NCBI GenBank assembly: GCA_019931105.1
Contig: JAIOUW010000001.1
Location: 248,001 to 312,000, forward strand
Source of the DNA: Flavobacteriaceae bacterium NBU2977
GTDB taxonomy: Bacteria; Bacteroidota; Bacteroidia; Flavobacteriales; Flavobacteriaceae
Length of the DNA: 64,000 bases
Direction of reading: 5' to 3'
Shown: positions 6,833-28,951 of the stretch, in pieces
How positions within the stretch are numbered: position 1 is the stretch's first letter
Layout: every line of letters begins with the position of its first letter
Position numbers and translations under genes: made by a program
The notes under the pieces: model-generated
What the model saw: the letters and a program-made list of their open reading frames with translations, nothing else
What the model was told of the DNA's origin: nothing
Databases searched by the model: none

Positions 6833-7192
6833 ATGCTAAAATTGACGAACAAAGAAGAAGAGGTTATGATCATACTCTGGCGACTCAAAAAAGCCTTTGT
6901 TAAAGAAATCATGGCCGAAATCGAAGGCGACAAGCCCCATTATAATACGCTTTCGACCATCGTTCGGAACCTTGAGGAAAAAAAGTACGTATCACATGAG
7001 GCTTTCGGAAATACGCATCGCTACTTTCCATTGGTAACTTTGGAAGCCTATCGCAAACGCTTTGTCAATTCTAAATTGGCCGAGTACTTTGATAACTCTT
7101 ATAAAAGCATGGTCTCTTTTTTTGCCAAGGAAGAGAAAATCTCTGTAGAAGAACTAAAGGAAATTATAGATCTGATCGAAAAAAAGAAATGA
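6833..7192 (+). CDS. BlaI/MecI/CopY-family transcriptional repressor
   Basis: 119-residue winged-helix DNA-binding protein. The N-terminal ~75 residues (LTNKEEEVMIILWRLKKAFV, then YNTLSTIVRNLEEKKYV, then HRYFPLVTLEAYRK) are the classic Penicillinase-repressor fold; the remaining helical tail would dimerise. Its stop overlaps the ATG of an M56 metallopeptidase gene by four bases (ATGA), the standard BlaI-BlaR1 arrangement in which the membrane peptidase senses a signal and causes the repressor to be cleaved. No beta-lactamase is near, so the controlled function is unknown; the twin dyads upstream suggest autoregulation. Confidence 0.92.
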   Translation: MLKLTNKEEEVMIILWRLKKAFVKEIMAEIEGDKPHYNTLSTIVRNLEEKKYVSHEAFGNTHRYFPLVTLEAYRKRFVNSKLAEYFDNSYKSMVSFFAKEEKISVEELKEIIDLIEKKK

Positions 7193-12947: not shown

Positions 12948-14031
12948 AACTAATAAATTTACCGTCTTCGCGAACTGTCAATCTCTTATTGGAAAAAGGA
13001 CTCATAACCGATAAGTTCCACCCAGTGGTGTGTTCTTCAAATAAAGGAAAAACCTCTATATCGGATATATTGAAGGATTTCTGCAAATCCGCCTTTTTTG
13101 GTTTTGTAGACCGATTTTTTTCCGCTGACCATAAGCGGTGTGCCAAAGTGTACAGGTGCCATTTGATTTTTTCATCACTGGAAATGGTAAAATTCACATG
13201 GGTAGCGGACTCGTTCGAAAAATATACATAGCCCCAATGTTCGGGCTCGTGCATATTGATAACCCCTTGGGGAGACCAAACCCAATTATATTCCGGCAAA
13301 TACTTCCCTGATTCGTCTTTTTTTCTTGAATATCTGCCGTTTTCGAGTTCGTACTCCCAGTTGACCCTTGAAAAATTCAAACGCCAAAATTCATTGACAG
13401 GTATTCTATTGTCCTTGGCCGCTTCCAAAATTGCTTTCCATGGCATTGCTATTTCAACGCTCCACCCCGCATCCTTATCGTTCGGATCGTTCAAAGTGCC
13501 ATCGATGTGCACCGCAGTTTTTAACCCATGAATATCCCATCCATCAATTACTTTAGCACCATTTCGATAGGGCTTTGTAAGCCATAGATCCCAGATAGTA
13601 TTCAATACATTCATCTCAAATTCCATATAGTCGTGGGTATCGCCATCGGGATCTATGAAAATTTCAAAATCGTTGTTGTAGAAAATGACCGTATCCCTTT
13701 GTTTGAGTGTACCCCAAACATGTGGTTCTTCAATTTTCGCAAAAAAATACAGATAGTCCTCGTTCCACAGCATCTTCATTCGGGTTCTGTATAAAGGCGT
13801 CTTAACTCCTTCGATATCTATAAAATCCTCGGACCAACCCGCATCTTTCCATGACGCTTCGAGTGCACGCCCGTCAATTTTCAATAACTCATTTGCCTTT
13901 AGAACCGTATAAGTTCTGGGCGACTGTTGGGCAGTTGCCAAAAAGCAGTTTATTGAAATAACACTTATCAATAGTCCAACGATACCTTTTTTACAGCCGA
14001 AAGACTCCAAGCCTTCATACATAAGAGCCAT
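12937..14031 (-). CDS. Secreted carbohydrate-binding family 9-like protein
   Basis: The open frame extends to 14145, but its first 38 residues are highly basic and the ATG at 14031 gives a normal signal peptide (MALMYEGLESF then GIVGLLISVISINCFLATAQQ). The mature part begins with the CBM9/DOMON-like pattern LKIDGRALEASWKDAGWS, then MLWNEDYLYFFAKIEEPHVW, DFEIFIDPDGDTHDYMEFE, WSVEIAMPWKAIL and FWRLNFSRV. Such proteins bind sugars, and in Bacteroidota they often sit beside glycan-degrading enzymes. The last ~70 residues are a separate region of unknown role. It is upstream of the DUF4838 gene in the same operon and divergent from a two-component system. Confidence 0.85.
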   Translation of the reverse strand: MALMYEGLESFGCKKGIVGLLISVISINCFLATAQQSPRTYTVLKANELLKIDGRALEASWKDAGWSEDFIDIEGVKTPLYRTRMKMLWNEDYLYFFAKIEEPHVWGTLKQRDTVIFYNNDFEIFIDPDGDTHDYMEFEMNVLNTIWDLWLTKPYRNGAKVIDGWDIHGLKTAVHIDGTLNDPNDKDAGWSVEIAMPWKAILEAAKDNRIPVNEFWRLNFSRVNWEYELENGRYSRKKDESGKYLPEYNWVWSPQGVINMHEPEHWGYVYFSNESATHVNFTISSDEKIKWHLYTLAHRLWSAEKNRSTKPKKADLQKSFNISDIEVFPLFEEHTTGWNLSVMSPFSNKRLTVREDGKFISYDE

Positions 14032-14294
14032 TTTTAAAATATCGGTTTTTTTAAGTATAACATACTTCCAAAGGAAACCTAGCTTTGCCTTCATCTGCAA
14101 AAAACTTTTATGAAAAATATTTACCTTACGCGCCATACGTGTCAAACACCTTTAGCCAGAACCTTAAATTTACGAATTGATTTTAAAAAAGATCAAAGTC
14201 TTGCCAAATCAAATATCGAAATTCGCCCAACAGGAATACTATGTGCGCGGTAATATCAAAAATGTGTAAATAGGTATATTTTAAACGGTCTGAA

Positions 14295-15377
14295 ATGGGT
14301 ATCAACAACCAACTTGATGATATTTTAAAAGTTGACTCCACGGGTAAATACAAGGTAACCTACTGGCACCATATAATATTCTGGGTTCTTTATTTTGCGT
14401 TCAATACGTTACGTTGGCAAAGTATTCACGGTGATTTCATGTACTCGCTCAAGACCAATTTGATCGGTTTTCCTATTCACATGACCCTTTGTTATTTAAA
14501 TGTGTATGTTTTAATGCCAAAATTCATCTATACCAGAAAATATTTTCACTATACAGCGCTGATTTTGATAGCACTACTTTCAATGTTACTGCTCAAGTTT
14601 AACCTTACCTATTATTTAGTCGGGCCGAACGTAATGCCCGAAGCAGAAGAAGAAGTTACTAGTATTACATTAAATTATGCCATTGTCACCATGATCGGCG
14701 AAGTTTACGTAATCTCATTTTTTACGGCCATCAAGATTACCGTGGATTGGCTTCGGGAACATAGCAAGTTGCACGATTTGGAAAAAAGGCAACTCACCAC
14801 CGAACTTCGATTTCTTAGGTCGCAGGTTTCCCCACACTTTTTTTTCAATACGCTCAACAATATTTATTCGTTGACCCTTTCGAAATCGAAAAAAGCACCT
14901 GAAGTGGTTCTTAAACTTTCAGAACTGATGCGCTATCTACTTTATGCGACCGCACAAAGCAAACAAGATCTTAAAAGCGAAATCGACTGTATTCAAAATT
15001 ATATCGATTTGGAAAGAATCCGTTTTGACGATTCACTTGATGTTCAAATGAATGTTTCAGGAAAGCTTGATGACAAAAAAATAGCCCCGATGTTACTTAT
15101 TCCCCTTGTCGAAAATTGTTTTAAACATGGCGCCAATCAAAGCATCGAACACATAACCATCCTCATCGACGTCAAGGTCAAAGGTGATTTTCTCTATTTC
15201 AACGTGTCGAATACCGTTCCCAAGACCAGAAAGTCGAAAAAAAATTCTTATGTCGGCGGAATCGGATTATCCAATGTTAAAAAACGTTTGGAATTAGGAT
15301 ATGATGTCAACGATTATGAACTTTCAATCAATGAAAGGGAAGACATGTTTTACGTGAACTTAAAATTGAGAGTGTAA
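14295..15377 (+). CDS. LytS/YehU-type sensor histidine kinase
   Basis: 360 residues. Four hydrophobic segments in residues ~20-150 form an integral-membrane sensor without a large extracellular domain. A short coiled stretch (REHSKLHDLEKRQLTTEL) leads to the His_kinase box LRSQVSPHFFFNTLNNIYSL with phospho-acceptor H181, then the ATPase part (LIPLVENCFKHGA; GGIGLSNVKKRLEL). Its stop overlaps the ATG of a LytTR response regulator (TAATG), so the pair is translationally coupled. It is divergent from the CBM9/DUF4838 operon; the signal is unknown. Confidence 0.92.
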   Translation: MGINNQLDDILKVDSTGKYKVTYWHHIIFWVLYFAFNTLRWQSIHGDFMYSLKTNLIGFPIHMTLCYLNVYVLMPKFIYTRKYFHYTALILIALLSMLLLKFNLTYYLVGPNVMPEAEEEVTSITLNYAIVTMIGEVYVISFFTAIKITVDWLREHSKLHDLEKRQLTTELRFLRSQVSPHFFFNTLNNIYSLTLSKSKKAPEVVLKLSELMRYLLYATAQSKQDLKSEIDCIQNYIDLERIRFDDSLDVQMNVSGKLDDKKIAPMLLIPLVENCFKHGANQSIEHITILIDVKVKGDFLYFNVSNTVPKTRKSKKNSYVGGIGLSNVKKRLELGYDVNDYELSINEREDMFYVNLKLRV

Positions 15378-16087
15378 TGGAATTGAAAGCCATCGTTGTC
15401 GATGATGAGCCATTGGCCGTAGACGTACTCAAAAACTACATTGACCAGATCAAGGAGCTTCATTTGGCAAAAACCTTTTCGAACGCTATAGATGCATATA
15501 CCTATGTTCAGGCCAATCACCTCGACATTATTTTTTTGGATATAAATATGCCCGTCCTCGGCGGACTCGATTTTCTCGAAAACCTAAAAGTAAAACCAAT
15601 GGTCGTGATTACATCGGCACATGAAGAATATGCCCTGAAAAGTTTTGAGCTTGAAGTAATCGATTATTTGGTGAAACCCATACCCTTTCCGAGGTTTTTA
15701 AAAGCAGTTAATCGCATTATTGAACTAAAGAATCCAAAAGGGGATCCAAGTCAGGCTAGTTCTGAAAAAGCCCATATTTTCATAAAGGTCGATAAGAAAA
15801 AACTTCAAAAAATTCATTTGAACGATATTTTGGTCGTCGAGAGCCTTAAAGACTATATTCGTATCAAGACCAAGACCGACAAATTCATTATTCACAAAAC
15901 TTTGGGCAGTTTTACCGACGAGCTTCCTGCAGATAGGTTTTTAAGAATACACAGATCTTTTACCATTGCACTCGACAAAGTCGATGCCGTTGAGGGAAAC
16001 AGCCTTGAAGTCGACGGAATACGCTATACCATAGGTCGAAGTTATATCGATGCCGTCAAAAGTCGAATTCTGGAAGATTTGTTGTAA
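15377..16087 (+). CDS. LytTR-family response regulator
   Basis: 236 residues. Receiver domain at ~1-120 with the acidic pair in VVDDEPLA, phospho-acceptor D55 in FLDINMPVLGG, and the conserved Lys in VKPIPFPRF. LytTR DNA-binding domain at ~135-235 (IFIKVDKKKLQKIHLNDILV, then FLRIHRSFTIALDKVDAV). It is the output partner of the kinase immediately upstream. LytTR regulators usually bind imperfect direct repeats near target genes; no specific site was identified here. Confidence 0.95.
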   Translation: MELKAIVVDDEPLAVDVLKNYIDQIKELHLAKTFSNAIDAYTYVQANHLDIIFLDINMPVLGGLDFLENLKVKPMVVITSAHEEYALKSFELEVIDYLVKPIPFPRFLKAVNRIIELKNPKGDPSQASSEKAHIFIKVDKKKLQKIHLNDILVVESLKDYIRIKTKTDKFIIHKTLGSFTDELPADRFLRIHRSFTIALDKVDAVEGNSLEVDGIRYTIGRSYIDAVKSRILEDLL

Positions 16088-17137: not shown

Positions 17138-20100
17138 TCAATGTAATGTATTCGCATCCAGGGAGACAATAATTTTATCTATTTCTCCTGTTCTCCCAAA
17201 AATTTTGGCACTTGTTTTTATATCAAGCCCAAGAGTCTCAAATTGACCAACTTCATTGTTGGCGTAGAACACTTCAAGACTAGAGCTCTCGGCAATTTTG
17301 TAGACAACTGGAACTTGGCAATAGGTAAAACAAAGTGAATTTTTTTCAAGCTTTACCTCTTCTTGTTCTTTCTTCAGGTTCGTGTAACTAAAGCTTCGCT
17401 CCTTGCTTAAAAACTCTTCTTTTCTCAAGAGACCGGGGCCAAATCCAAGCTTACCATCTTTTATTGAAACCCCTATTTCGCCCAACCTACTAAGAATATC
17501 CTCTTTTACCTGACCGGTCATCCCCGGTTGCTGTGCTCCTTTGTTCGATGGCGTATGTGAATAAGGGTCCGTAGTAAATGCACCATAAAGTTCTGGGGAT
17601 TTATGAACTCCGATTCCCTCATTAATTTCGTAATAATGATCCAACAACCTTCCGATCACTACATCATTTTCCTTGTTGGCAATGGCCTTTAAACAACATT
17701 CTTGCACCGCCAACAAGAGCTTAGAAACCATGTGCCAATAAATAGAGCCCAAGCCCTCATAACCAAAAAAGGTTCCTGATCTTCCTGTGAAGGATTTGTG
17801 GTCGAACATATCTTCAAAGACATCAAGCACTAGTTGTTGATCCTCTTTCACCAGTTCGCCGTATTTATCTTTCGATAATTCTGACAAAGCACTAACAAGA
17901 CTAGTAGCATTATTAAAATTACCATTAAAATGATAGCCACCCTCAACATCTTTTTCAATGATCTGGGTATTTCCATCCTTTACTAATTGCCGTAGTAAAG
18001 CTGATTTTTCAACTGCGGCAAGCGGAATGTTATTCTTGTTGATGAATCGCTTGAGCTCCTTGTCAGGGTATAGCAAATAACTATATTGATCGCTACGGAA
18101 CAGGGCACTGTTCTTAAGACCATCCAGCAATTTTAAACTCGCTTCCGAAGAAAGATAGCCGGAACTTAAAACCGCCACCTGACCCTCTAGCATTTCGTTT
18201 AAATATGTTATCGAAATCTTATTTTTATTTGAAACGGTCATTAAGTTGTACGAATGGTACAAATTGTCTTCCCTTTTGTTAGTTTTTATGGAATGCTCAA
18301 AATAGGCCAGTACTATTTGTAAAAAATGTTGGAGTTTCTCAGTTGGCACCTCCTTTCTCCGACCGGAAAACCCATTTTCGTAAATGATGGTCCTATATGT
18401 ACTGCCTGCATTGCCCAACCCATCTAAAATCAGTTTGCGATCACTATCGGAAAATTTACCGGAAAGCATCTGTCGGTTTTGCTCCAAAGTGCTTATTACC
18501 TCATCAAAAAAATGAGCCAATTCTTCGGATATTTCAATTTCCTTGACCGACGTATTGCGCACTATTCGCTCAAAGAATTTTAGAAACCTTCTGAGGTAGC
18601 AGAGCGTAACCATTGAAACTCCGTTTCCTACCAAGGCATTGTTCGCATCATTCCATTCAGGTCGTTGTGTATTCAGCCATATACCGCCTTCCGGAATAAA
18701 ATTGGAGCATTTGGCCAAAACGGTTGCCAGTAGTTTTTCCAACAGATTGACGTTATAAATAGCATCGTTTTCGGCACCAAGTAGCGCACCATCCGCCCCT
18801 AGTTTTTTTTTGTTTAAGAATATCTTCCCTTCTGAGCCATGATCAAAGGTTATGGTGTCTTTAGGATTCGAAAGTATATCGTCGTAGGTTTTGATTTTGT
18901 AGGGAACATTGGCGTAGACAAAAAGATTTTGATCAAGACATGCAGTCAAACGACCTGGGTAGTAATCTTCGATAAATTCAAGAAACTTGAGTAGGTAAAT
19001 TATCTGGTGGTCTCCCCAATACCCAATATAGGACCATGGGTCATTTGGTTCAATCACTTCCCAGTCAAAACCGCCCTTGGTAACCCTATATGGATTATAG
19101 CCGTCGAAGGTGGTTGCATTCAAGAACTTATGGATCATGCTTTCGATAAACTGGGGATAAGAATGGGCCAACGCTTCCCAGTTTTGAAAAATATCCCTCC
19201 AGTTACCCTCGTAATCGAGTACCTTAGACCCATCAATTTCACTCTTTGTATTGATGGAAAACTTATTCCATAGTCGGCTTGGATCACCGTGTCTCCTACT
19301 AAACTTTAGCGGCATATACTCAATACAGAGTCTTTTGAAGTTTGCATCTTCGTGTTTATCAACAATTGTCCTTAAATGTTCGAGTGAAAATGTTTCTGGT
19401 AATTTTTTCAGTAGGGTCTCATACTTCTTATAAACTCTTTTATTGGCCATGGCCATATACTTTATAAAATCACTTTTTAGAATTTCATATCCGTCATCAA
19501 AAATACCACCCCGCATAATGTTGAAAAGAACGTTCGAAAAATGCCTGGAATTTTGAAGTTCATCGGCGGTTAGCTGTAAACCATCCGCCGCCCCGACCAA
19601 TTCTATGAGATTGCGCGTACCCAAAGCGACGTCATTTGAGACCTCTTTGACCAACAAGTCCTTTGTGCTTCTCAGTGTAGTTGAAATTGCCTTTACATCT
19701 GATGGCCCTTGATTTACGTTAGCGACAATCATCCAACTTTTTGTTTGACCGGCATCGATTTCAAGATCGGCACAAACGAAGTAAGCGCACTTCTCAGCCC
19801 TAATGTCTCTTTCTTCTATTACATCTTGACCTTTTCTAAAGGTGTCGAGTTGTGTAGCAGATATCAAATATTTTGGCCTCTCCAGGCCAACGGACCAGGC
19901 GACGGTTGCCTTCAATGCCTCACTAGGCTCGGCCTTATCGACAATAATGGCACTTAAGGCGTAGATTCCCAATCCTAATTCCGATTCAAGCTCACTTTTC
20001 TTATAGGCGTCTGCCAGATTGCTTCTGTTGTTCTGCAAGTCGGCATTTATACCGTAGGGCATGATATTTTGAATGCCATCCATGGCGGTTATCTTGATTT

Positions 20101-20623
20101 TACTTCCGGTATGGTTTATCAAGGTGGTCTTTTTAACAAATCCGAAACGATTGCTCATACTCCATTGATACCTGCAAGTGAGGCCAAAGTCGTGGTTCAC
20201 TTCTTCAAAAATAATCTTGTTCCCATATTTGTTTTTATACAAATTGTGTTCGGTGGAGTATAGTCCTTTGTAGTTGTTTGAAAAAGGTTCCCACAGATAG
20301 GTCTTGCTGACACGATGTATTTGGAGAATGGTCTTACTTCCCGTTATTTCAACAGATTCCGTTATCTTATCATCAGTATAATAGGGAAAAAGGGCAGTAT
20401 CACAGTCTTTCCTTCCTGCACTTAGTCCGCCATTACTTGAGATGAACATCCAATGATTTGAATCACTTACAATGCTCATTAAAAACGGTCGCATACCGTC
20501 AACATTGGAAATTTTATAAAAACTTTCCCTCTCAATGGTGACCAAGCTTCCTGATACCTCTTGCCTTTGAACATTCAATTCAACGTCACCTAAATAAATT
20601 GCATTGCCCATCTCTTCTTTCAT
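17138..20623 (-). CDS. Putative beta-glucan/oligosaccharide phosphorylase (GH94/GH149/GH161-like)
   Basis: 1161 residues, no signal peptide or membrane segment, so cytoplasmic. N-terminal ~300 residues are beta-rich (super-sandwich-like; GDVELNVQRQEVSGSLVTIE); the centre is helical and Trp-rich, with DPWSYIGYWGDHQIIYLLKF at about 510-530 and TQRPEWNDANNALVGNG at about 651-667, in which D659 matches the catalytic Asp of the WND motif of inverting GH94-type phosphorylases. Near 943-963 TGRSGTFFGYEGLGSIYWHM could be the phosphate-binding loop. Length fits GH149 better than GH94. Neighbours are a GH16, an MFS sugar porter and a GH-A lipoprotein, so phosphorolysis of imported beta-1,3-glucan oligosaccharides to glucose-1-phosphate is the best inference. 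Exact family and linkage are unproven. Confidence 0.6.
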   Translation of the reverse strand: MKEEMGNAIYLGDVELNVQRQEVSGSLVTIERESFYKISNVDGMRPFLMSIVSDSNHWMFISSNGGLSAGRKDCDTALFPYYTDDKITESVEITGSKTILQIHRVSKTYLWEPFSNNYKGLYSTEHNLYKNKYGNKIIFEEVNHDFGLTCRYQWSMSNRFGFVKKTTLINHTGSKIKITAMDGIQNIMPYGINADLQNNRSNLADAYKKSELESELGLGIYALSAIIVDKAEPSEALKATVAWSVGLERPKYLISATQLDTFRKGQDVIEERDIRAEKCAYFVCADLEIDAGQTKSWMIVANVNQGPSDVKAISTTLRSTKDLLVKEVSNDVALGTRNLIELVGAADGLQLTADELQNSRHFSNVLFNIMRGGIFDDGYEILKSDFIKYMAMANKRVYKKYETLLKKLPETFSLEHLRTIVDKHEDANFKRLCIEYMPLKFSRRHGDPSRLWNKFSINTKSEIDGSKVLDYEGNWRDIFQNWEALAHSYPQFIESMIHKFLNATTFDGYNPYRVTKGGFDWEVIEPNDPWSYIGYWGDHQIIYLLKFLEFIEDYYPGRLTACLDQNLFVYANVPYKIKTYDDILSNPKDTITFDHGSEGKIFLNKKKLGADGALLGAENDAIYNVNLLEKLLATVLAKCSNFIPEGGIWLNTQRPEWNDANNALVGNGVSMVTLCYLRRFLKFFERIVRNTSVKEIEISEELAHFFDEVISTLEQNRQMLSGKFSDSDRKLILDGLGNAGSTYRTIIYENGFSGRRKEVPTEKLQHFLQIVLAYFEHSIKTNKREDNLYHSYNLMTVSNKNKISITYLNEMLEGQVAVLSSGYLSSEASLKLLDGLKNSALFRSDQYSYLLYPDKELKRFINKNNIPLAAVEKSALLRQLVKDGNTQIIEKDVEGGYHFNGNFNNATSLVSALSELSKDKYGELVKEDQQLVLDVFEDMFDHKSFTGRSGTFFGYEGLGSIYWHMVSKLLLAVQECCLKAIANKENDVVIGRLLDHYYEINEGIGVHKSPELYGAFTTDPYSHTPSNKGAQQPGMTGQVKEDILSRLGEIGVSIKDGKLGFGPGLLRKEEFLSKERSFSYTNLKKEQEEVKLEKNSLCFTYCQVPVVYKIAESSSLEVFYANNEVGQFETLGLDIKTSAKIFGRTGEIDKIIVSLDANTLH

Positions 20624-20631
20624 TAAATATG

Positions 20632-20663
20632 AAGACCTCTAAAAATTTATTTAAAGAGGTCTT
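20632..20663 (-). promoter_or_regulatory. Hairpin immediately upstream of the phosphorylase-like start codon
   Basis: Stem AAGACCTCT/AGAGGTCTT (20632-20640 with 20655-20663) in the 72-base gap between the GH-A lipoprotein stop and the phosphorylase-like ATG, ending eight bases before that ATG. No T-run follows on the minus strand, so an RNA processing, stability or translation-control element is likelier than a terminator. Confidence 0.45.
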
Positions 20664-20695
20664 TGTACTAGTTGTTTGTTAAAAAACCCTTTCCA

Positions 20696-22027
20696 TTAAT
20701 TTACCAAAAAAGGTATGTTGGCCGCTGCCGCATGATCGTGTCCATCAGAAGCATAAACAAACAGGCGATAGGCACCCTTGCCGGGTGACTTGAATGTTAC
20801 CTTACCCTCTTGTTGTGATATGATCAGGCCACCAATAGCTTCAGGCCTTTCCTCTGCATCACCACCTTCTTTTAAATCCGTGCTTTCAGGCATAATCTCC
20901 CATCGGTAGCTAATTTCATCTCGCTCGTAATCTTTTACCATTATTTGGGCGGAGTATTGTTCGTCCGCCTCCAACTCCACATTTTCATACGCTGTTTTTC
21001 CGTTCAACTTGTAATCTTCGATAATAGGAGTACGATTTTCGGGCCAAGAGCCGTTCCAAACGTAATGCATCACATCAACAGATTCCGTTTCTTTGCCATC
21101 TTCCAAAAAAATACCATACCATGTTGGAGTCCGTTCTTGTTTATTGCCCCATAGAAAAACATAAGACCCAATACACTGTAATGAATCTGCAGCTATGCCG
21201 CCATTAAATCGCTTGAGATAGTTGGCTGCTTTTACCGAACTGTGTTCTTCAATCGGTGCGCCCCATTTTGTCGTGGGAACCTCCCAGTGACCAGTAGCCC
21301 CCCATTCGGTAACCATATAAGGGCCCTCCCAGCCGAACTTCTTGATCAAGTTGGGCAAATCTGGAAGATCCCCGTACATCTGTACGGATAAGATGTCAAG
21401 ATCTGCACAACGTTCTTTTATATAATCCACTTCTTTTTGAGCCAGACCTGCCAGACTAGTAGTAGTAGGGTGATTTGGGTCTATTTCATGAATCATTTTT
21501 GAAATATCGTTTACCGCATCCCAAACTTTCGGATTGGTATAATGTAGATTAAGCTCGTTGCCTATTCCCCATATCAATAAGGCGGGATGATCTTTCAAGG
21601 GCAAAACTTGCTCCTTGATTTCTTCCAATTGTTTTTTCACCATTTCGGGATCGTCATAATTGAACCCATGGCGCTCCCTGCCCACCTCAATGCCCATGGT
21701 AACCATTAGCCCATTCTCATGGGCTTCATCAAGCACCTCCTTCGCCGATCTCTCCCCATTGTCGGTACGCCAAGTCCGAAAGGAATTAGCATTGTGTTTT
21801 GCCAATGCCGGTATGCTTCCGAATTCAAGCCCAGCGCCCTTTATATAAAAATCTTGGCCGTTGACCAGCAATTGATATTTTCCATTTTCTTCCTTTAATT
21901 CTACCTTAGCAGCGGTTGTTTTTTGTTCAGTAGCGGATTCAGGGGTACTATTTCCGGTATTTTGCTTACATGATACAAGAATACCGATACTAAGGATAAA
22001 AAATAATCTTCGCATTGCAGGTGTCAT
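20696..22027 (-). CDS. Clan GH-A glycoside hydrolase lipoprotein (GH2-barrel/GH158-like)
   Basis: 443 residues. Lipoprotein signal ending LSIGILVSC (Cys20), then a TIM barrel at about 40-340: YIKGAGLEFG, NANSFRTWRTDNG, LLIWGIGNELN (E158 as acid/base) and YMVTEWGATGHWEVP (E241 as nucleophile), the strand 4/strand 7 pair of clan GH-A. The last ~90 residues look Ig-like. Compact GH-A enzymes with an Ig-like tail include GH158 endo-beta-1,3-glucanases of Bacteroides, which would fit the GH16 neighbour; a GH2 or GH5-type origin is possible. The ATG overlaps the MFS stop (ATGA), so the two are translationally coupled. Confidence 0.75.
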   Translation of the reverse strand: MTPAMRRLFFILSIGILVSCKQNTGNSTPESATEQKTTAAKVELKEENGKYQLLVNGQDFYIKGAGLEFGSIPALAKHNANSFRTWRTDNGERSAKEVLDEAHENGLMVTMGIEVGRERHGFNYDDPEMVKKQLEEIKEQVLPLKDHPALLIWGIGNELNLHYTNPKVWDAVNDISKMIHEIDPNHPTTTSLAGLAQKEVDYIKERCADLDILSVQMYGDLPDLPNLIKKFGWEGPYMVTEWGATGHWEVPTTKWGAPIEEHSSVKAANYLKRFNGGIAADSLQCIGSYVFLWGNKQERTPTWYGIFLEDGKETESVDVMHYVWNGSWPENRTPIIEDYKLNGKTAYENVELEADEQYSAQIMVKDYERDEISYRWEIMPESTDLKEGGDAEERPEAIGGLIISQQEGKVTFKSPGKGAYRLFVYASDGHDHAAAANIPFLVN

Positions 22028-23565
22028 TTTCTGATTAGTAATTCTTCGACTTCTTCCAGGGTTCTACCTTTGGTCTCGATTACAAATTTATAGACGAAGA
22101 GCATCGCACAGAAAGAGAGTAAAGCGTATATAGCGAAAGTTATCGTCGGCCCAAGGTTTGATAGCTCCCAAGGAAATATCTGGGTCACGGAAAAACTAAC
22201 CAACGAGTTGAAAAAGCCAACAACTGAAATCGCTATTCCCTTTATCTTACTTGGAAATATCTCAGAAAGTAAAGTCCACATTACTGGGCCTAAAGATATC
22301 GCAAACGAAGCCACATATAGCAGTATCGCAATAAGCACCAAGGTGGCATTGATTTGAATAAAATTGGTAATCTGGTTGCGCTTAAAATCCAAAAACTGAG
22401 AACCTTCCAATTTAGGTTCGACGGCTTCGAACAGGGCTGCCTGACTCTCAAAAGATTTACCCTGAAAATCGTTCAAAACCATATTGAGTTCTTTATTATC
22501 GATTTTGGATAGTGTTTTCTCACTAAAGTCATAGGTCGCGTTATTGAAGGCGTATGCCGCCATTAATAGTGCAATGGTCATAAAAGTGGTGCCGATCAAC
22601 AACAAAGGTTTTCTTCCCAACCGATCGATCAACCACATCGCGACCAAAGTGAATACAAGATTGGTAAGCCCGACTACAATTGCCTGTAAAAAGGAGGAAT
22701 CGGTACTGCCTCCCGCCTGTTCGAAAATGGTAGGTGCATAATAAAAAACCGCATTTATACCGGTAATCTGCTGAAAAAATGCAATGCCGAATGCAATGAT
22801 CATAATGGTGGCGTACCTACTCTTAAAGAAATCAGATAGCTTTCCCTTGGTTTCTTTTTTTGCAAGGCCTCTTTGAATTTCCGAGACCGTTGACTTGGCA
22901 TATTCTTCCCCTCCTATTTTGGCCAAAGTTTTTTGTGCAATCTCTTCATTACCCGTTTTTTGAATCAACCATCTAGGGCTTTTGGGCACTGCGAAAAGAG
23001 AGAGAAAATAGATTGCTGCTGGAATTGCTTCAACGCCCAACATCCAACGCCAGCTCTCCCCTTCAATGTTCACAAGAAAGTAATTTGAAAAATAGGCCAC
23101 CGAAATACCGATCACAATATTCAGTTGATTAAACGATACTAGGCTACCTCTTAACTTCGGTGGGGCGATTTCGGCTATATAAATGGGTGCTATTAATATA
23201 GCGCCTCCGATTCCTATACCACCAATAATTCGCGCAATAATAAATTCCGTGTAGCCGGTCGCAAACGCGGACCAAGTTGCCGATATCGTAAAGAGCGCAG
23301 CAACGATAATCAGCACCTTCTTCCTGCCGAAACGATCCGCAAGGGGTCCTGCCATTAGATTCCCGGCCATCGCACCGAATACCACACAACCCACTGAAAA
23401 ACCAAGCATCCATTCTGTCATTTCGAAATACACGGTAATTCCTTTGACAGCTCCTGAAATCACGGCACTGTCAAAACCCAGTAAAAACCCACCTAAAGCA
23501 ACAATTAGACTTATAAGAATGGTATACGACCTATTTAATTTAACAACGTCATCCGGTGTGTTCAT
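22024..23565 (-). CDS. MFS sugar porter (sugar:H+ symporter)
   Basis: 513 residues, 12 predicted helices. Sugar-porter signatures: LLGFDSAVISGAV in helix 1, DRFGRKKVL between helices 2 and 3, VPKSPRWLIQ after helix 6, QQITGINAVFYYAPTIF in helix 7, DRLGRKPLLL, and the C-terminal ETKGRTLEEVEELL. A loop of about 60 residues near 340-400 (after helix 9) makes it longer than XylE-type relatives. Inner membrane. It sits between the GH16 gene and the GH-A gene, and no SusC/SusD pair is present in the locus, so this would carry glucose or short oligosaccharides across the inner membrane. Confidence 0.93.
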   Translation of the reverse strand: MNTPDDVVKLNRSYTILISLIVALGGFLLGFDSAVISGAVKGITVYFEMTEWMLGFSVGCVVFGAMAGNLMAGPLADRFGRKKVLIIVAALFTISATWSAFATGYTEFIIARIIGGIGIGGAILIAPIYIAEIAPPKLRGSLVSFNQLNIVIGISVAYFSNYFLVNIEGESWRWMLGVEAIPAAIYFLSLFAVPKSPRWLIQKTGNEEIAQKTLAKIGGEEYAKSTVSEIQRGLAKKETKGKLSDFFKSRYATIMIIAFGIAFFQQITGINAVFYYAPTIFEQAGGSTDSSFLQAIVVGLTNLVFTLVAMWLIDRLGRKPLLLIGTTFMTIALLMAAYAFNNATYDFSEKTLSKIDNKELNMVLNDFQGKSFESQAALFEAVEPKLEGSQFLDFKRNQITNFIQINATLVLIAILLYVASFAISLGPVMWTLLSEIFPSKIKGIAISVVGFFNSLVSFSVTQIFPWELSNLGPTITFAIYALLSFCAMLFVYKFVIETKGRTLEEVEELLIRK

Positions 23566-23650
23566 CTGATCGGTTTTATTGTTATTGTAAGTTAATGAAT
23601 TTCAGGGTACGAATTTCTTTGCCTTCTATTGCGTACTGAAATCAAAGAAG

Positions 23651-23676
23651 AAGGCTAGCGAATTTTGGCTAGCCTT
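23651..23676 (-). terminator. Hairpin between the GH16 and MFS genes
   Basis: Perfect stem AAGGCTAGC/GCTAGCCTT (23651-23659 with 23668-23676), followed on the minus strand by pyrimidine-rich CTTCTTTGA. It may terminate part of the GH16 transcript, letting the enzyme be made in excess over the transporter, or mark the end of a separate unit. Confidence 0.55.
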
Positions 23677-23700
23677 CCATCCTACTATAACCTATTCAAA

Positions 23701-25803
23701 TTATTGATATACCCTTATATAATCGACTTCCATTGTATCTTCTGTAAAGGCAGGATCAATAGCTCCACCTAGTGTTCCGCCAACCGCGATATTCATTATG
23801 AAAAAGAAATCACTGTTGAACGGAGTATCTGTAGAATTCACAAAACTTAGGTGTATAAGTTCATCGTCCACCACAAATTTGATGCTTTCCGGAGTCCACT
23901 CAACTGTGTAGTTATGAAACTCTGAAGTTGCTGTAGGTACTGATGTTGATGCCGTAACGGCCGTACCACCGAAATTACCTGGATAGTGCAATGCACTAGA
24001 GGTTACATTTGGGTTATTGCCCACATGTTCCATGATATCAATTTCACCGCACGTAGGCCATCCTACGTCAGCGAAATTTGCCCCTAGCGCCCAAAGAGCC
24101 GGCCATGTACCTCCGGCTGTAGGAAGTTTGGCTCTGACCTCTACCCTTCCATAGGTAAATTCATAAAGGTTTTCCGATTTAATCCTTGCTGAAGTGTACG
24201 CCGCATCACCCAAAGGGCTCACGCCGAAATCAAAGAACAGAACTACTCTGTCATAAGTAAATGCCGGTGCTGCGCTAAGATCAAAAGTCAGTGTTTCCCA
24301 AGCCTCAGCTACCGCTGTGGTCGCATCTACTTCCACGAATTCGTCTGCATTCGCCTTGTTCTCAAGCTTCAACCGCACCACGGCACCAACCTCCGGGGAC
24401 CATGTTTTCACACTCATACTCGTATACGTATTCAAATCGAGAGGAGTGGGTAAATCAAAGAAAGAGCCGGCCCAAACTTCCGCACCAACGGGCTTTGTTG
24501 ATTCAGCAACGGATAAAGATGTATTCTCACCCGACGCGTCCGGGTTGTCAACCACCGTGGTCGATGCACCGCCAAATCCAGTAAAAGCCGGAGGCGTTCC
24601 CTCAAAATCCTCTACGGTTGATGTTGCCCCTCCTGAAGCGACCAAAGTTACGTCATCATAATAATGCGTGGCACCACTAGCATCGCCCGAAGCCTTCGCC
24701 GTAATCTTCAGTACTCCATCCTCAACCCTTACGTTTTCAGGATTATCGGTATACGACTGTGACTCTCCGTTACCCCAGCCACCTGCGCCAAGATCATAGG
24801 TCCAATTTGCAGGATTAGGTGCGCCATCTATATCAAATTCATCTGACCAAACCAAGTTGTCATATATGGTCTCCAGATTTTCATCACCTCCTCCTGTAGC
24901 AGGAGCCGAGGTAAACCTAAGGTACCAAGCCAAATCAGCATTCATGGTATCATAGGTTCTCACGTATAACAAGTCCTCAGTAATTGTGAGAATCTCATAA
25001 GTTGAAGAACCTACATAATAACTCATAAACCCGCCATCGGAAAAGTCCATTTGAATGCCCGTAGTTTCTCCTTCCGGAACATTACCACTGACAGATGATA
25101 TCGTCACCGTTTTTGAGCCTGAGGTATCAAAATCATAACAAGCATCCTCAGTTTCCGCACCACCGGCTACCTCTTTATGCGCCACATTAAAGAAAGTCTG
25201 ACCTTTGTTGTCAAGAACGTAAGACAACTCTCCGGTCGAATCTACAGAAAAGGTCAACTCGTCATCACAAAAGCAATCGGAGATATCGGCACCACATTTT
25301 TCAAATGCCTGGGCCGAGTACCATTTAGGATACCACCAATCGCCATCAATACCTTCTCTCGCTGGGCCTAAACCTAAATGGCCCGGCTGTGAAGCCGCCA
25401 AAAACCATGTTTTAGAACTACCATTCGTCAAAAGACCGACCTCCTCCGGAATCTCTACGGTAACAGTTACAGTCACCTGTATTGTTTCAGTAAGACTAGA
25501 TCCATCGTTACCATTGGCAGTCACGGTCACGGTATAATTATTTTCGCCCGCCATCTCATAGGTCTTTACTATAAATCCAGTAAGGGACTCTCCAGTGGTA
25601 CCATCACCAAAATCAAAACTGAATGATTTTGCGCCAGAGGCTGTAGCCCTTATTGTTACGGTACCAGATCCATCGTCCTGAACTTCAGGGGTCACTGATA
25701 AATTAGCAAGAGGGCCGTTGACCGGACCGTCATCCTCTTCACAACTAAATGCGATTATGAGTAACGCGATAAAAACATACTTAAATTTTTTCATATTGTT
25801 CAA
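23701..25803 (-). CDS. GH16 beta-glucanase lipoprotein (laminarinase-like) with PKD and nested accessory domain
   Basis: 700 residues. Lipoprotein signal IALLIIAFSC (Cys21), a PKD-type domain at about 35-115 (FDFGDGTTGESL), an unassigned region at 120-300 with several cysteines, then GH16. The GH16 fold begins NLVWSDEFDIDGAPNPANW near 320 and its active site is EIDIMEH (nucleophile E587, acid/base E592) after GTWPALWALGANF. Between about 375 and 535 the GH16 fold is interrupted by a ~160-residue jelly-roll-like domain (SVKTWSPEVGAVVRLKLENK; WETLTFDLS). Surface-anchored endo-beta-1,3(4)-glucanase is the likely role. An ATG nine bases downstream (25794) is an alternative start. Confidence 0.9.
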   Translation of the reverse strand: MNNMKKFKYVFIALLIIAFSCEEDDGPVNGPLANLSVTPEVQDDGSGTVTIRATASGAKSFSFDFGDGTTGESLTGFIVKTYEMAGENNYTVTVTANGNDGSSLTETIQVTVTVTVEIPEEVGLLTNGSSKTWFLAASQPGHLGLGPAREGIDGDWWYPKWYSAQAFEKCGADISDCFCDDELTFSVDSTGELSYVLDNKGQTFFNVAHKEVAGGAETEDACYDFDTSGSKTVTISSVSGNVPEGETTGIQMDFSDGGFMSYYVGSSTYEILTITEDLLYVRTYDTMNADLAWYLRFTSAPATGGGDENLETIYDNLVWSDEFDIDGAPNPANWTYDLGAGGWGNGESQSYTDNPENVRVEDGVLKITAKASGDASGATHYYDDVTLVASGGATSTVEDFEGTPPAFTGFGGASTTVVDNPDASGENTSLSVAESTKPVGAEVWAGSFFDLPTPLDLNTYTSMSVKTWSPEVGAVVRLKLENKANADEFVEVDATTAVAEAWETLTFDLSAAPAFTYDRVVLFFDFGVSPLGDAAYTSARIKSENLYEFTYGRVEVRAKLPTAGGTWPALWALGANFADVGWPTCGEIDIMEHVGNNPNVTSSALHYPGNFGGTAVTASTSVPTATSEFHNYTVEWTPESIKFVVDDELIHLSFVNSTDTPFNSDFFFIMNIAVGGTLGGAIDPAFTEDTMEVDYIRVYQ

Positions 25804-25979
25804 TTTAATTCGGTTCGTTATACTTCAACATAAACATGATTGGCTATCATTGTGGAACACTATACACAGAATAACATTTGCAATGTATTGTATTGTTCTA
25901 TCAATTCAATAAAAAGAACCACTACAAAAAACATACAATTGAAAAATTATCCCAAAAATCAACCAAATACGTAACTTTT

Positions 25980-25987
25980 AGAGGTCT
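25980..25987. promoter_or_regulatory. AGAGGTCT motif upstream of the GH16 gene
   Basis: The same 8-mer, in similar TTTA...TTG context, occurs in the hairpin before the phosphorylase-like gene (20655-20662). It lies in the 283-base gap 25804-26086 that separates the regulator from GH16 and holds no gene. A shared operator is possible, but an 8-mer occurring twice in 6 kb is weak evidence. Confidence 0.2.
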
Positions 25988-26086
25988 CTTGACTGTTTTA
26001 TATAAGGAAGTAAATGGCTGAATTCTTGAGTTAATTCAACATCTTGTATAGGTAATGTTGTGGTAGATGGAGAGAAAGGAAAAAAT

Positions 26087-28951
26087 TTAAATATCCAAAA
26101 TATAGTCAGTTAGACCATCTTCGTGAATTAATTTCATCTTTTTGCGCAAACGATATCTCTTTACTTCAACACTGCGAACCGAAATATTCAATAATGGGGC
26201 AATCTCTTTTGAAGAAAGGTTTAATCTAAGGTAAGTACATAATCTGAGATCGTTTGCGGTTAATTCAGGATGCAAAGATTTTACTTTTTTCAAAAAATCC
26301 TTGTCGGCATGGTTAAAAGCATCTTCGAAGAATTTCCAGTCATCTGAGTTATTGATATTTCGATCGATGGTACGGATAACGGATTTTACCTGAGGAATAT
26401 TGGTACTATCCTTTAACTGATCTTTGATAGCATTTAAAAATTCGTTCTTTTTTATAATACTCATCGTCGATATCGCAAGTTCTCTATTCTTACTCTCAAC
26501 CTCTTCCTGCAACTTTTCATTTTTTATTTGGACGATTCTCTTTTGTGCCTTCAACTTCTTTCTCTTTATCTTTTTCTTATTGGCCCGTAATAGAAGTTCC
26601 TGCTGTTTTACATAATAGCGCTTGTATAATTTGTGAACCGAAAGCGCTAGAAGAATAAAAGTCAATACATAAATAAAAATGGCAAGATTGGACAAGAACC
26701 ATGGCCGTTCAATTCGAAAATCATAACCTGCCACATTTGATGAAATCAGATTACCAATTTTGGCCCTAACTTTAAAAGAATAGTTTCCATAAGGTAAGTT
26801 CTCAAAAGAAGCCTCAGATACAGTAGACCATTCGCTCCATGACTCATATATTCCTTTAAGCAAATATTGGTAGTTTACCTCTGTATATTTATCAAACTCC
26901 GGAACATGGTACGAAAAGAATAAATTGTTTTGACTGGATTTAAAGGAAATCGTTGAATCGGTATAAATTCTCTCTACCGGAGTGTCACTTGATTTTCTAG
27001 CGACTGAACTAATTCGAACGGTATATTCCTTCGATTTTAATTTAGTTAAATCGACGGTCAAGTAACCATTGGAAATACCTACCAAATATTTTTCATTGCC
27101 AATTGGGATCAAACTTTCAAAACCTAAAACCCCAAGGTTCTTTCTAACATGAGCAGGAATAGGTATTTTACTTATTTGCGAACGAGCATCCAATTTTCCT
27201 GGGGAGGTATAGACGATATTTCGTTCTGTAAAGCACCACAGGCGCTTAGCACGTTGGTCGGGAATAAAAATACCTATAGGGTCATCCTTTTCACCATAAA
27301 ACTGGTACGTTAAAACGGTATCGGGTAAAAATACTGCGTCCGTAACGTCATATTTAAAAATTCCATTGTTACAAGTGTAAAGTACATCTTCGGCATATCT
27401 CACAAGACTTGCCCCGATTCCTTTAGGTGGCTCATTTTCTTTACCAACAATTTTGGTATAGTCACTATCTACATAAAGCTTGTAGAGACCCTTGAATTCT
27501 CGATTCACTACTATGCGATTCTTGCCGATAAATTCGAAAAAACGGCTTGATATATCAAACCCTTCAATCGAATTTCTAAACTGCCATTCCGTTCCATTTT
27601 TTTTTAGAACACTCAACCCATTGAAATTACCTTGAAGCAATAGATCCTTTCGATTTGGAATCGGCTTGATATCCCATGTGCCCGGGAATTTTGAAATCAG
27701 CTTGGCCTTGGTTCCATTTACTACATACGTCCCTGAATTATGACCACAAAACAGAACATTATCAACAATTTTCAAAAGCCATACTTGCCCTTCGGTGCCC
27801 TTAACTTTCGTAAAATTCCCTTCGCTTTCGGCCTGTTTATAAAATAAGCCTTGATTCGTTCCAAGATATAGATAGTCTCGATATAATGTCGAGGCATAAA
27901 CCACTCCTATCTCCCCATTTTTATCTATGTATTCGTTAAATGGTGAATCCATATTAAGAATACTGATACCGTTATCAAGTGCCAACCATAGATTATGCTC
28001 CCTATCTTCAAAAATCGCTAAAACTGTATTGTTATTAAGCCCTTTTTTCTGGTTGATACTATGAATGACCTTGCCTGAACTGTCAATATGATATATACCG
28101 TTAGAAATGGTTCCGAGAACGATGGTACCATCTATAAGCTGAAGACTGCTGTAGACCTTGATAGATTCATTGTTTTCGCTAAAAGGATCATGCCATCGAA
28201 CCAAGTTTCCACCATTCAAAAAGTAAAATTCCCCTTTCTCGGTAACCAGTAACGGTCTATTATCGATGGAAAAAATCCCTAAAATCACGTCTTCTTTGAC
28301 AATGGGGTCGTCCGCTATTAAAATGGAAATTCCATTCTCGATCTTAAAAAGTCCAATACCAATACGGTGGTAGTAAACCGTTCCATTAAAATTAAACATA
28401 TGCGCTTTGATAGAACTCGCGTCTATGCTCTTAATGGATTTATCAGATGCGTTATAGATATAAATACGTTCGAGGCTTTGAAAAAGCACCCAATCATCCA
28501 ACTGTACAATATTCCAAAATTCCTCATCCTCCAATAGTTCCACGCCCAGGTCACCACTAATCGAATAATAAATAAGCTCCCCCCATGAATTCTTTTTCCA
28601 AAACCCGAACTCCATATAGCAGCCAGAATATATGATATCATTCACAGCCTTTACGGACCTGATTATTGAACCATTGGGTGAGCCATATAGCTTCCAAACC
28701 GAGCCATTATATTCGAGTAGACCTGCGTTATTGGCTACGTAGATATTCTCTTCTACTGACTGCGACACCCCCCAATTCTGGTTCTCCGCCCCATAATCGA
28801 TCGGTATGAAATTTTGGATTGGCGGATGCTCTTGACCCAAAGTCAAGACAACAAAAAATAACAAAAAAGATAGATTGAGTAACTTCTGTGGTGCCCTAAT
28901 CTTCAAGGTCCTAAAAAATGGAAAAAAGGGAAAATCAAACAATTTCAGCAC
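26087..28951 (-). CDS. Membrane-spanning propeller sensor with LuxR-type HTH (SusR-like regulator)
   Basis: 954 residues. A signal/anchor (LNLSFLLFFVVLTLG) is followed by a long periplasmic beta-propeller region (Reg_prop-like repeats, e.g. AIFEDREHNLWLALDNGISI), a Y_Y_Y domain near 690-755 (SFENLPYGNYSFKVRAKIG), one membrane helix (~760-780), a basic coiled coil (~785-835), and a C-terminal LuxR-type HTH (ELTANDLRLCTYLRLNLSSK; SVRSVEVKRYRLRKKM). It has no kinase domain, so a periplasmic glycan signal would pass directly to DNA binding. It lies next to the GH16 gene, its likely target. Its start overlaps the clpS 3' end by 17 bases, tying it to a housekeeping operon. Confidence 0.88.
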   Translation of the reverse strand: MLKLFDFPFFPFFRTLKIRAPQKLLNLSFLLFFVVLTLGQEHPPIQNFIPIDYGAENQNWGVSQSVEENIYVANNAGLLEYNGSVWKLYGSPNGSIIRSVKAVNDIIYSGCYMEFGFWKKNSWGELIYYSISGDLGVELLEDEEFWNIVQLDDWVLFQSLERIYIYNASDKSIKSIDASSIKAHMFNFNGTVYYHRIGIGLFKIENGISILIADDPIVKEDVILGIFSIDNRPLLVTEKGEFYFLNGGNLVRWHDPFSENNESIKVYSSLQLIDGTIVLGTISNGIYHIDSSGKVIHSINQKKGLNNNTVLAIFEDREHNLWLALDNGISILNMDSPFNEYIDKNGEIGVVYASTLYRDYLYLGTNQGLFYKQAESEGNFTKVKGTEGQVWLLKIVDNVLFCGHNSGTYVVNGTKAKLISKFPGTWDIKPIPNRKDLLLQGNFNGLSVLKKNGTEWQFRNSIEGFDISSRFFEFIGKNRIVVNREFKGLYKLYVDSDYTKIVGKENEPPKGIGASLVRYAEDVLYTCNNGIFKYDVTDAVFLPDTVLTYQFYGEKDDPIGIFIPDQRAKRLWCFTERNIVYTSPGKLDARSQISKIPIPAHVRKNLGVLGFESLIPIGNEKYLVGISNGYLTVDLTKLKSKEYTVRISSVARKSSDTPVERIYTDSTISFKSSQNNLFFSYHVPEFDKYTEVNYQYLLKGIYESWSEWSTVSEASFENLPYGNYSFKVRAKIGNLISSNVAGYDFRIERPWFLSNLAIFIYVLTFILLALSVHKLYKRYYVKQQELLLRANKKKIKRKKLKAQKRIVQIKNEKLQEEVESKNRELAISTMSIIKKNEFLNAIKDQLKDSTNIPQVKSVIRTIDRNINNSDDWKFFEDAFNHADKDFLKKVKSLHPELTANDLRLCTYLRLNLSSKEIAPLLNISVRSVEVKRYRLRKKMKLIHEDGLTDYILDI

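Follow-up and report, generated by a model that had tools for sequence, protein, structure and literature searches.

Gene clusters that combine a phosphorylase of glycoside hydrolase (GH) family 149 with sugar transporters were described by Kuhaudomlarp et al. in 2018 (PMC5827456): type I clusters with an ATP-binding cassette (ABC) transporter, type II clusters with a TonB receptor and a major facilitator superfamily (MFS) porter and, in Bacteroidetes, both polysaccharide utilization loci (PULs) and clusters of carbohydrate-active enzymes (CAZymes) without susCD. The variant 1 laminarin PULs, which vary in content, contain GH149, GH17, GH16, GH158 and GH30; no susCD is present in that of W_MB115, a highly expressed metagenome-assembled genome (MAG) of NS4 (PMC10108472, PMC10877868). 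Loci with several CAZymes and without susCD are also reported in PMC10811738, and the laminarin PULs of Formosa are induced by laminarin (PMC6246565). A susCD-less CAZyme cluster is understood as a group of CAZyme genes that lie together, either with no susCD or with a transporter of the MFS type (PMC10108472). Here we describe a cluster of five genes in a stretch of 64,000 nucleotides from Flavobacteriaceae bacterium NBU2977 (contig JAIOUW010000001.1, positions 248,001 to 312,000; hereafter the window, with coordinates counted from its first letter). The cluster is a trimmed form of the published laminarin gene set.

The five open reading frames (ORFs) are intact and all lie on the minus strand, as the original prediction had it, and profile searches confirmed the families it had named: a regulator, a GH16 enzyme, an MFS porter, a lipoprotein of clan GH-A and a phosphorylase-like protein. 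Its view that this was the best candidate for an undescribed system had to be given up, since susCD-less GH149 clusters and variant 1 PULs with GH149 and GH158 had already been published. The linked susCD pair of a canonical Bacteroidota PUL was not found among the ORFs scanned in the window; the GH16, GH158, GH149 and MFS porter genes lie side by side, as in a susCD-less CAZyme cluster. The features of the locus are:

26087–28951, minus strand: regulator (954 residues), with a Y_Y_Y/propeller sensor part and a carboxy-terminal LuxR-like helix-turn-helix
23701–25803, minus strand: GH16 laminarinase lipoprotein (700 residues; PF00722, PKD), probably at the cell surface
24910–25752, minus strand: amino-terminal PKD and glucan-binding region of the GH16 protein (residues 18–298), SGBP-B-like by its phmmer match to PDB entry 7kv5
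24199–24690, minus strand: module resembling the carbohydrate-binding module (CBM) X584 inside the GH16 catalytic domain (residues 372–535), from sequence and model matches
23649–23678, minus strand: candidate terminator-like hairpin between the GH16 and porter genes, with an 11-bp stem
22024–23565, minus strand: XylE-like MFS sugar porter of the sugar porter (SP) family (513 residues; TIGR00879, XylE 4qiq)
20696–22027, minus strand: GH158 endo-beta-1,3-glucanase lipoprotein (443 residues; phmmer matches to 9oro and 6pal), probably facing the periplasm
17138–20623, minus strand: GH149 beta-1,3-glucan phosphorylase (1161 residues; NF058639, 6hq6), probably cytoplasmic, with no signal peptide by eye

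The gene products and a proposed route for laminarin

The 1161-residue protein, without a Pfam hit, matches the NCBIfam equivalog NF058639 (GH149_beta_1_3) over residues 20–1155 with 1783.6 bits (cut-off 1150) and the solved structure of Pro_7066 (PDB entry 6hq6) with 1594.5 bits. A WND catalytic loop, an RD motif and a conserved histidine are described for Pro_7066 (PMC6771811); here Trp657-Asn658-Asp659, Arg476-Asp477 and His964 are identical in all 90 aligned relatives. Residue and start-codon counts were made without the loci of the genome itself (L001, L082–L084) and the near-duplicates L008/L009, percent-identity comparisons without the former only. The surface oligosaccharide site of Pro_7066 (Glu990, Tyr993, Glu994), which is not conserved in all GH149 proteins (PMC6771811), is largely present, with Tyr998 and Glu999 kept and Glu990 replaced by Asp995. 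By family and active site the protein is predicted to be a beta-1,3-glucan phosphorylase, so that the phosphorylase-like function of the original prediction can be given a family. Among the matches listed, 14 relatives are 64–69% identical to it.

The lipoprotein encoded directly upstream matches PF02836 (Pfam, clan GH-A). By phmmer, its residues 42–442, comprising the barrel and an Ig-like domain, match PDB entry 9oro, "GH158(Pro)", at E 8.4e-85, and 6pal is matched at E 2.9e-76. In BuGH158, the Asn-Glu acid/base pair and the Glu nucleophile are Asn136, Glu137 and Glu220 (PMC7157763). The equivalent Asn157, Glu158 and Glu241 are present in 25 of 25 relatives.

The porter scores 375.8 bits against TIGR00879 (cut-off 237.8) and matches XylE (PDB entry 4qiq) at E 8.6e-84; 12 of 14 relatives among the matches listed are 80–86% identical to it. 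Asp32 aligns with the aspartate in the first transmembrane helix (TM1) of XylE, a residue linked to proton coupling. Asp32, Gln147, Gln265, Gln266, Asn271 and Trp430 are identical in 25 of 25 relatives, while Tyr275 is a tyrosine in 18 and a phenylalanine in seven; residues that touch the sugar in XylE are kept. By sequence the protein is a XylE-like MFS porter of the SP family with the TM1 aspartate, for which both substrate and proton coupling are tentative assignments. A hydrophilic loop of about 60 amino acids (residues 341–403) lies between TM9 and TM10, on the expected periplasmic side, and seems to occur in two sequence types among the 25 relatives.

The GH16 protein probably starts at an ATG 9 nucleotides inside the listed TTG start. 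Pfam finds PF00722 (86.7 bits) and PKD, and ExDxxE-type catalytic residues are present in the motif GEIDIMEH at residue 586. The best match of the predicted model is ZgLamA (PDB entry 4bpz; Z 29.2, r.m.s.d. 2.4 over 231 residues), and the closest solved structures by sequence are laminarinases as well. Fold and motif thus point to an endo-laminarinase, with subfamily 3 as a tentative label. After the signal peptide the sequence reads Cys-Glu-Glu-Asp-Asp, and this lipoprotein start suggests a location at the cell surface. Residues 18–298 match a Bacteroides "PKD domain protein" (PDB entry 7kv5; phmmer E 3.3e-18), which we take to be SGBP-B. The corresponding region of a Maribacter homologue has been likened to BfSGBP-B (PMC11345257).

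The catalytic domain is interrupted by 164 residues (372–535). They are about 55% identical to modules of F1 from L033/L048 and begin with the strand that ends the preceding module in F1, that is, in permuted register. F1 is a lipoprotein with tandem modules whose gene, where SusCD is linked, lies between those for SusD and GH16. A search with the full-length GH16 model was dominated by the GH16 domain, and the insert was therefore folded and searched alone. Its model is an independent beta-sandwich (pLDDT 90.2, pTM 0.84). The PDB entry closest to it in structure is 8qx6, "Novel laminarin-binding CBM X584" (Z 12.7, r.m.s.d. 2.4 over 129 residues). The same entry ranks first in Foldseek at E 2e-3, where nothing matched at E ≤ 0.001, and is found by phmmer at E 0.0047.

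The interrupted architecture occurs in six of 298 other genomes of the family, at 59–80% identity; because these and Maribacter (PMC11345257) share it, an assembly artefact could be ruled out. In 2024 the Maribacter insert was reported without database assignment, 29% identical to BfSGBP-B and suspected of binding laminarin (PMC11345257). The matches to X584 and to the F1 modules, and the permuted register, are new here and likely give that unassigned insert its identity. Among freely accessible papers none was found on 7KV5 or 8QX6, and none of the matches listed for X584 deals with this CBM in its available parts. A free-standing F1 seems absent from the genome, where the insert as query has two matches at E ≤ 1e-10, the GH16 protein itself and presumably the second GH16. 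The latter is a 293-residue protein (C9:400059-400610, in L086), encoded away from the other genes of the set.

In the regulator, Pfam finds Y_Y_Y (34.4 bits), with GerE and Sigma70_r4_2 both below cut-off; a profile search of its 954 residues found no kinase domain.

Taken together, the cluster is probably a reduced, SusCD-less version of the variant 1 laminarin locus that works along the following route. The regulator would sense a beta-glucan product and switch the genes on. The surface GH16 enzyme, with its SGBP-B-like amino-terminus and X584-type module, would hold laminarin and cut it to short laminari-oligosaccharides, as its family and homologues suggest. They would cross into the periplasm by way of a porin, or of a TonB transporter whose gene lies elsewhere, and GH158, judged by family and by its likely place on the periplasmic side, would trim the longer pieces. 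The XylE-like porter may then take in short oligosaccharides, glucose or both together with protons, after which GH149, as its family and active site suggest, would use phosphate to shorten the oligosaccharides with release of glucose 1-phosphate. This route is supported by the catalytic residues, all present in GH149, GH158 and GH16, by the closeness of the porter to XylE, and by Maribacter forsetii, whose large GH16_3 enzyme of the same described architecture rises on laminarin (PMC11345257). The pathway of laminarin cleavage, import and phosphorolysis put forward in the original prediction is thus plausible for these genes, and laminarin is probably the substrate eaten with them.

Beta-glucan equipment of the genome and its relatives

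Most of what the genome has for the use of beta-1,3-glucan seems to lie in the five-gene cluster. Of the variant 1 PUL members, GH149, GH16 and GH158 are present; GH30 was not found in the genome, nor was GH17, for which a single query without a positive control was used. An MFS_2 orthologue was likewise not found in the genome (best E 6e-5). Two GH3 proteins are encoded. Both resemble NagZ. The first has a beta-lactamase-like second half (by eye). The second, encoded beside an anmK-like gene (by eye; L096, 1453–3009; C13 of the genome), has a beta-N-acetylhexosaminidase model as its best NCBIfam match, at 157 bits below the cut-off of 207.

For comparison, a census was made of the best 80 of at least 589 confirmed stretches. 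It leans to close relatives, many of its loci end at contig edges, and the family names in the locus maps come from one representative each and BLAST clustering. The 80 GH149 loci contain GH17 (73), MFS_2 (65), GH30 (63), GH16 (60), SusD (19) and SusC (16), as well as the regulator family (20, some of which have it at their far end or encoded on the opposite strand), the porter family of the window (15) and GH158 (8). The name GH17 was checked with PF00332 (29.0 bits, against 28.2) and PDB entry 6fcg (E 1.7e-34). A survey of gene order, which the original prediction had called for, gave the order porter-GH158-GH149 in all eight GH158-bearing loci, with another ORF in between in two of them; the porter adjoins GH158 in all but one, where an ORF separates the two. 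Within the family, 101 of 299 genomes drawn have GH149 (E ≤ 1e-200). GH158 at 53% identity or more is encoded in 19 other family genomes, a set that shares two genomes with the census; it adjoins GH149 on the same strand in ten of the 19 and has the porter family directly upstream in 14, one of the other five loci starting at a contig end. Close GH158 genes in genomes without GH149 at E ≤ 1e-200 are those of L126, L128, L130 and L131, the last with a GH3 in place of GH149.

A family of about 1050 residues with a weak match to a GH2 barrel (25.4 bits) lies near GH149 in 38 of the 80 loci, often right after the regulator (for instance in L040, 4457–7624), and possibly corresponds to what published laminarin PULs call "GH0". 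We considered whether the "GH2" of the Muricauda laminarin PULs is a mislabelled GH158. This was ruled out with L069, from Flagellimonas algicola AsT0115, which PMC13188888 names among its strains: the locus has the 1050-residue family and no GH158.

XylE and GlcP, the nearest matches of the porter, are both monosaccharide porters, and residues that contact the sugar in XylE are kept in it; the MFS_2 porter, which possibly brings in oligosaccharides, is present in most GH149 loci. These points would fit a porter that imports mainly glucose, with GH149 left with little substrate or working in the synthetic direction. We think this unlikely: with no MFS_2 orthologue in the genome and both GH3 proteins NagZ-like, nothing found would make periplasmic glucose, and a cytoplasmic phosphorylase requires imported oligosaccharides.

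The target might also be a mixed-linkage or fungal beta-glucan rather than laminarin, given that GH16 subfamily 3 enzymes can cut beta-1,3/1,4-glucans (BuGH16, PMC7157763). The other enzymes make this quite improbable, as high specificity for Laminaria laminarin is described for both BuGH158 and BfGH158 (PMC7157763) and GH149 is a beta-1,3 phosphorylase (PMC5827456); the insert in GH16, moreover, is closest to a laminarin-binding CBM.

SusCD and the history of the chromosomal site

The locus had been called SusC/SusD-free, which holds for the window: no SusC match exceeds the cut-off, and neither SusD nor a full SusC was found in the 32 Pfam-scanned ORFs of the 48 with at least 150 residues. 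The ORF at 7189–8919 (plus strand) contains a TonB-plug fragment with a SusC match of 50 bits (cut-off 368). It encodes a 576-residue protein with a BlaR1-type M56 peptidase part and a TonB-plug-like carboxy-terminus. Elsewhere in the genome ten SusC proteins exceed the cut-off, the nearest (C8:233873-237028) about 28 kb from GH149.

In Maribacter forsetii, where the GH16_3 laminarinase gene is solitary, an unlinked SusC/D pair is strongly up on laminarin relative to a casamino-acid control, and is also expressed on glucose (PMC11345257). A SusCD-free locus thus need not mean SusCD-free uptake, and one of the ten SusC proteins could serve this cluster in the way suggested for Maribacter, so that uptake would involve SusCD even though the gene order does not. 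The genome's own SusC proteins, however, are at most 35% identical to those of GH149/GH158 loci. In a tree of 27 SusC proteins (ten own, with 17 of the 25 locus ORFs, eight under 800 residues being left out), 16 of the 17 locus proteins form one group (97/98) with no own SusC inside; the one outside it is encoded on the opposite strand in L075. The ten own SusC genes lie in nine stretches, in which no ORF clusters by BLAST with census GH16, GH17, GH30, GH149, GH158 or GH3. This speaks against an unlinked SusCD, though not decisively, and we give such uptake a little short of an even chance.

The cluster is flanked by PrmA-TpiA (names confirmed) on one side and a YeeE pair on the other. PrmA, the YeeE pair or both also flank subsets of these genes in L128, L129, L131, L132, L002, L169 and L171, of which six are arranged as follows:

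L128, both flanks seen: GH16-porter-GH158
L129 (Eudoraea chungangensis), both flanks seen: porter-GH158-GH149 and two more ORFs
L169, both flanks seen: GH16 alone
L131, PrmA side: porter-GH158-GH3
L132, YeeE side: SusD-F1-GH16-GH16-porter-GH158-GH149-GH17
L171, PrmA side: regulator-SusC-SusD-F1-GH16-GH16, including an interrupted GH16; 2.5 kb and two ORFs separate PrmA from the regulator

A relative of CBM9 is encoded at the same site in L169. In the window, genes for a DUF4838 protein and a CBM9-like protein (10701–14145, minus strand) lie beside a histidine kinase/LytTR pair (14295–16087).

L170 and L171 have SusCD linked to the interrupted GH16; in the window and in L166, L167, L168 and L169 this GH16 stands without it. 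The tree of the interrupted GH16 splits the five SusCD-less from the two SusCD-linked proteins (100/100), with which the regulator tree agrees: among 19 regulators over 640 residues (ten of 29 ORFs were too short and left out), that of the window groups with those of L166/L168 (98/96), as sister to those of L170/L171 (97/92). Since relatives at the same site hold subsets of the genes, and L171 has them with SusCD, the most likely history is a secondary loss at a conserved site, in which SusC-SusD-F1 between regulator and GH16 was deleted in an ancestor. A locus type that never had SusCD is not favoured given the site subsets and the tree split, the trees being midpoint-rooted only. Of the 46 long loci, 30 are without SusC or SusD within 10 kb, 13 of them with a regulator; this is an upper bound, as loci that have two runs of GH16 may carry SusCD at a greater distance upstream, and the figure carries no weight in the argument.

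The 4-base overlap between the porter and GH158 genes (22024–22027), pointed out in the original prediction, stands only if the first ATG of GH158 is the start codon used; position 22015 holds another ATG in the same frame. The overlap is not conserved: with an ATG it is seen in the window alone among 21 porter-GH158 loci, and 18 of the other 20 have their first in-frame ATG 0–30 nucleotides downstream of the porter (6–10 in 11 of them). L135 possibly has a 1-base overlap; for L011 no start was obtained, and in L004 a TTG too is present at the −4 position. The hairpin between the GH16 and porter genes, with six GC pairs, has the longest stem listed. The 71-nucleotide stretch that contains it folds with −21.6 kcal/mol (z −2.6), a value that two of 200 shuffles reach. 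It is a candidate only, because the region has 14 terminator-like sites, slightly more than the 11.1 expected from shuffles; with such a hairpin at this place, a single operon is no more than possible. The −33/−7 promoter pattern, which we take to be the Bacteroidetes type, occurs three times in the window, where 3.85 occurrences would be expected, and not once in the cluster; sigma-70-like sites (40 against 30.8 expected) were not used.

Several observations weigh against the proposed working as one reduced laminarin locus. The hairpin 3′ of GH16 allows two independent units, and in Eudoraea chungangensis GH16 (L167) lies on another contig than porter-GH158-GH149 (L129). There may accordingly be two units side by side, the regulator and GH16 for attack on the polysaccharide and porter-GH158-GH149 for scavenging of oligosaccharides. 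The regulator and GH16 occur without the rest in L166 and L168, GH16 occurs alone in L169, and at the same site L128 and L129 have porter-GH158 with a different GH16 or none. Against such a division, L127, L132 and L135 hold SusC and/or SusD, F1, GH16, porter, GH158 and GH149 in one run, and we regard it as possible, at rather less than even chances. Apart from the units, the debranching GH30 was not found here though most GH149 loci have it, and four of the 19 GH158 genomes (G131, G020, G205 and G193) are without GH149 at E ≤ 1e-200. GH149 is present in one of three genomes of the genus, which suggests that the trait is dispensable. As to history, the seven-row GH16 tree is midpoint-rooted only, 69 of 500 label shuffles split it as cleanly, and the direction, loss rather than gain of SusCD, rests on synteny and parsimony.

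A bolder combination of claims is doubtful as a whole: that after the loss of SusC, SusD and the surface lipoprotein that binds glycan the locus manages without TonB-dependent import of glycans, a circularly permuted X584 module captured in the GH16 catalytic domain keeping the surface binding, short oligosaccharides entering through porins, and a dedicated laminari-oligosaccharide/H+ porter with periplasmic GH158 feeding GH149, the sole exo-acting beta-1,3-glucan step found in the genome.

Comparison with known systems

In the sea, laminarin is a major store of carbon, and its consumers are predicted with SusCD genes as markers. At one chromosomal site a series runs from SusCD-linked sets to SusCD-less remnants, so that the need for SusCD can be asked about, and the remnants warn against predicting diet from SusCD alone. 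The pairing of porter and GH158 points to a candidate inner-membrane importer of laminari-oligosaccharides that can be tested; in the available parts of the cited papers no biochemical assay of such import was found.

In its GH149, GH16_3, MFS porter and, as in some of them, GH158, the locus resembles the variant 1 PULs of Formosa Hel1_33_131 and North Sea bloom MAGs, which are laminarin-induced (Formosa) or expressed in blooms, with W_MB115 as a susCD-less example. Unlike in those, no GH17, GH30, MFS_2, linked SusCD or free-standing F1 was found in the genome of the window, and the XylE-like porter stands where variant 1 loci have MFS_2 and GH17-MFS fusions. With the clusters of PMC5827456 it shares GH149 beside GH16 and sugar transporters, susCD-less cases being among those described, while GH158 and an SP-family porter were not met in the available descriptions there.

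The GH16 enzyme is like the GH16_3 protein of about 700 residues from Maribacter forsetii, with PKD, an SGBP-B-like region and an interrupted GH16 domain, in which two laminarin-binding domains are suspected; that type is solitary or PUL-linked and laminarin-induced, and a homologue is named in Eudoraea chungangensis (PMC11345257). It differs in that the gene of the window adjoins porter-GH158-GH149 and that its insert could be matched to X584 and F1. The Bacteroides 1,3-beta-glucan utilization locus (1,3GUL) also has GH16_3 and GH158 together, with SGBP-B-type glucan binding, but is SusCD-linked and has a hybrid two-component system (HTCS) regulator and a GH3 in place of the phosphorylase (PMC7157763). 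The Muricauda laminarin PUL, finally, has a LuxR-annotated regulator, GH16, GH149 and an MFS porter as in the window; it differs in its two GH17, GH30 and GH2, and the term GH158 is absent from the main text of the paper as available (PMC13188888).

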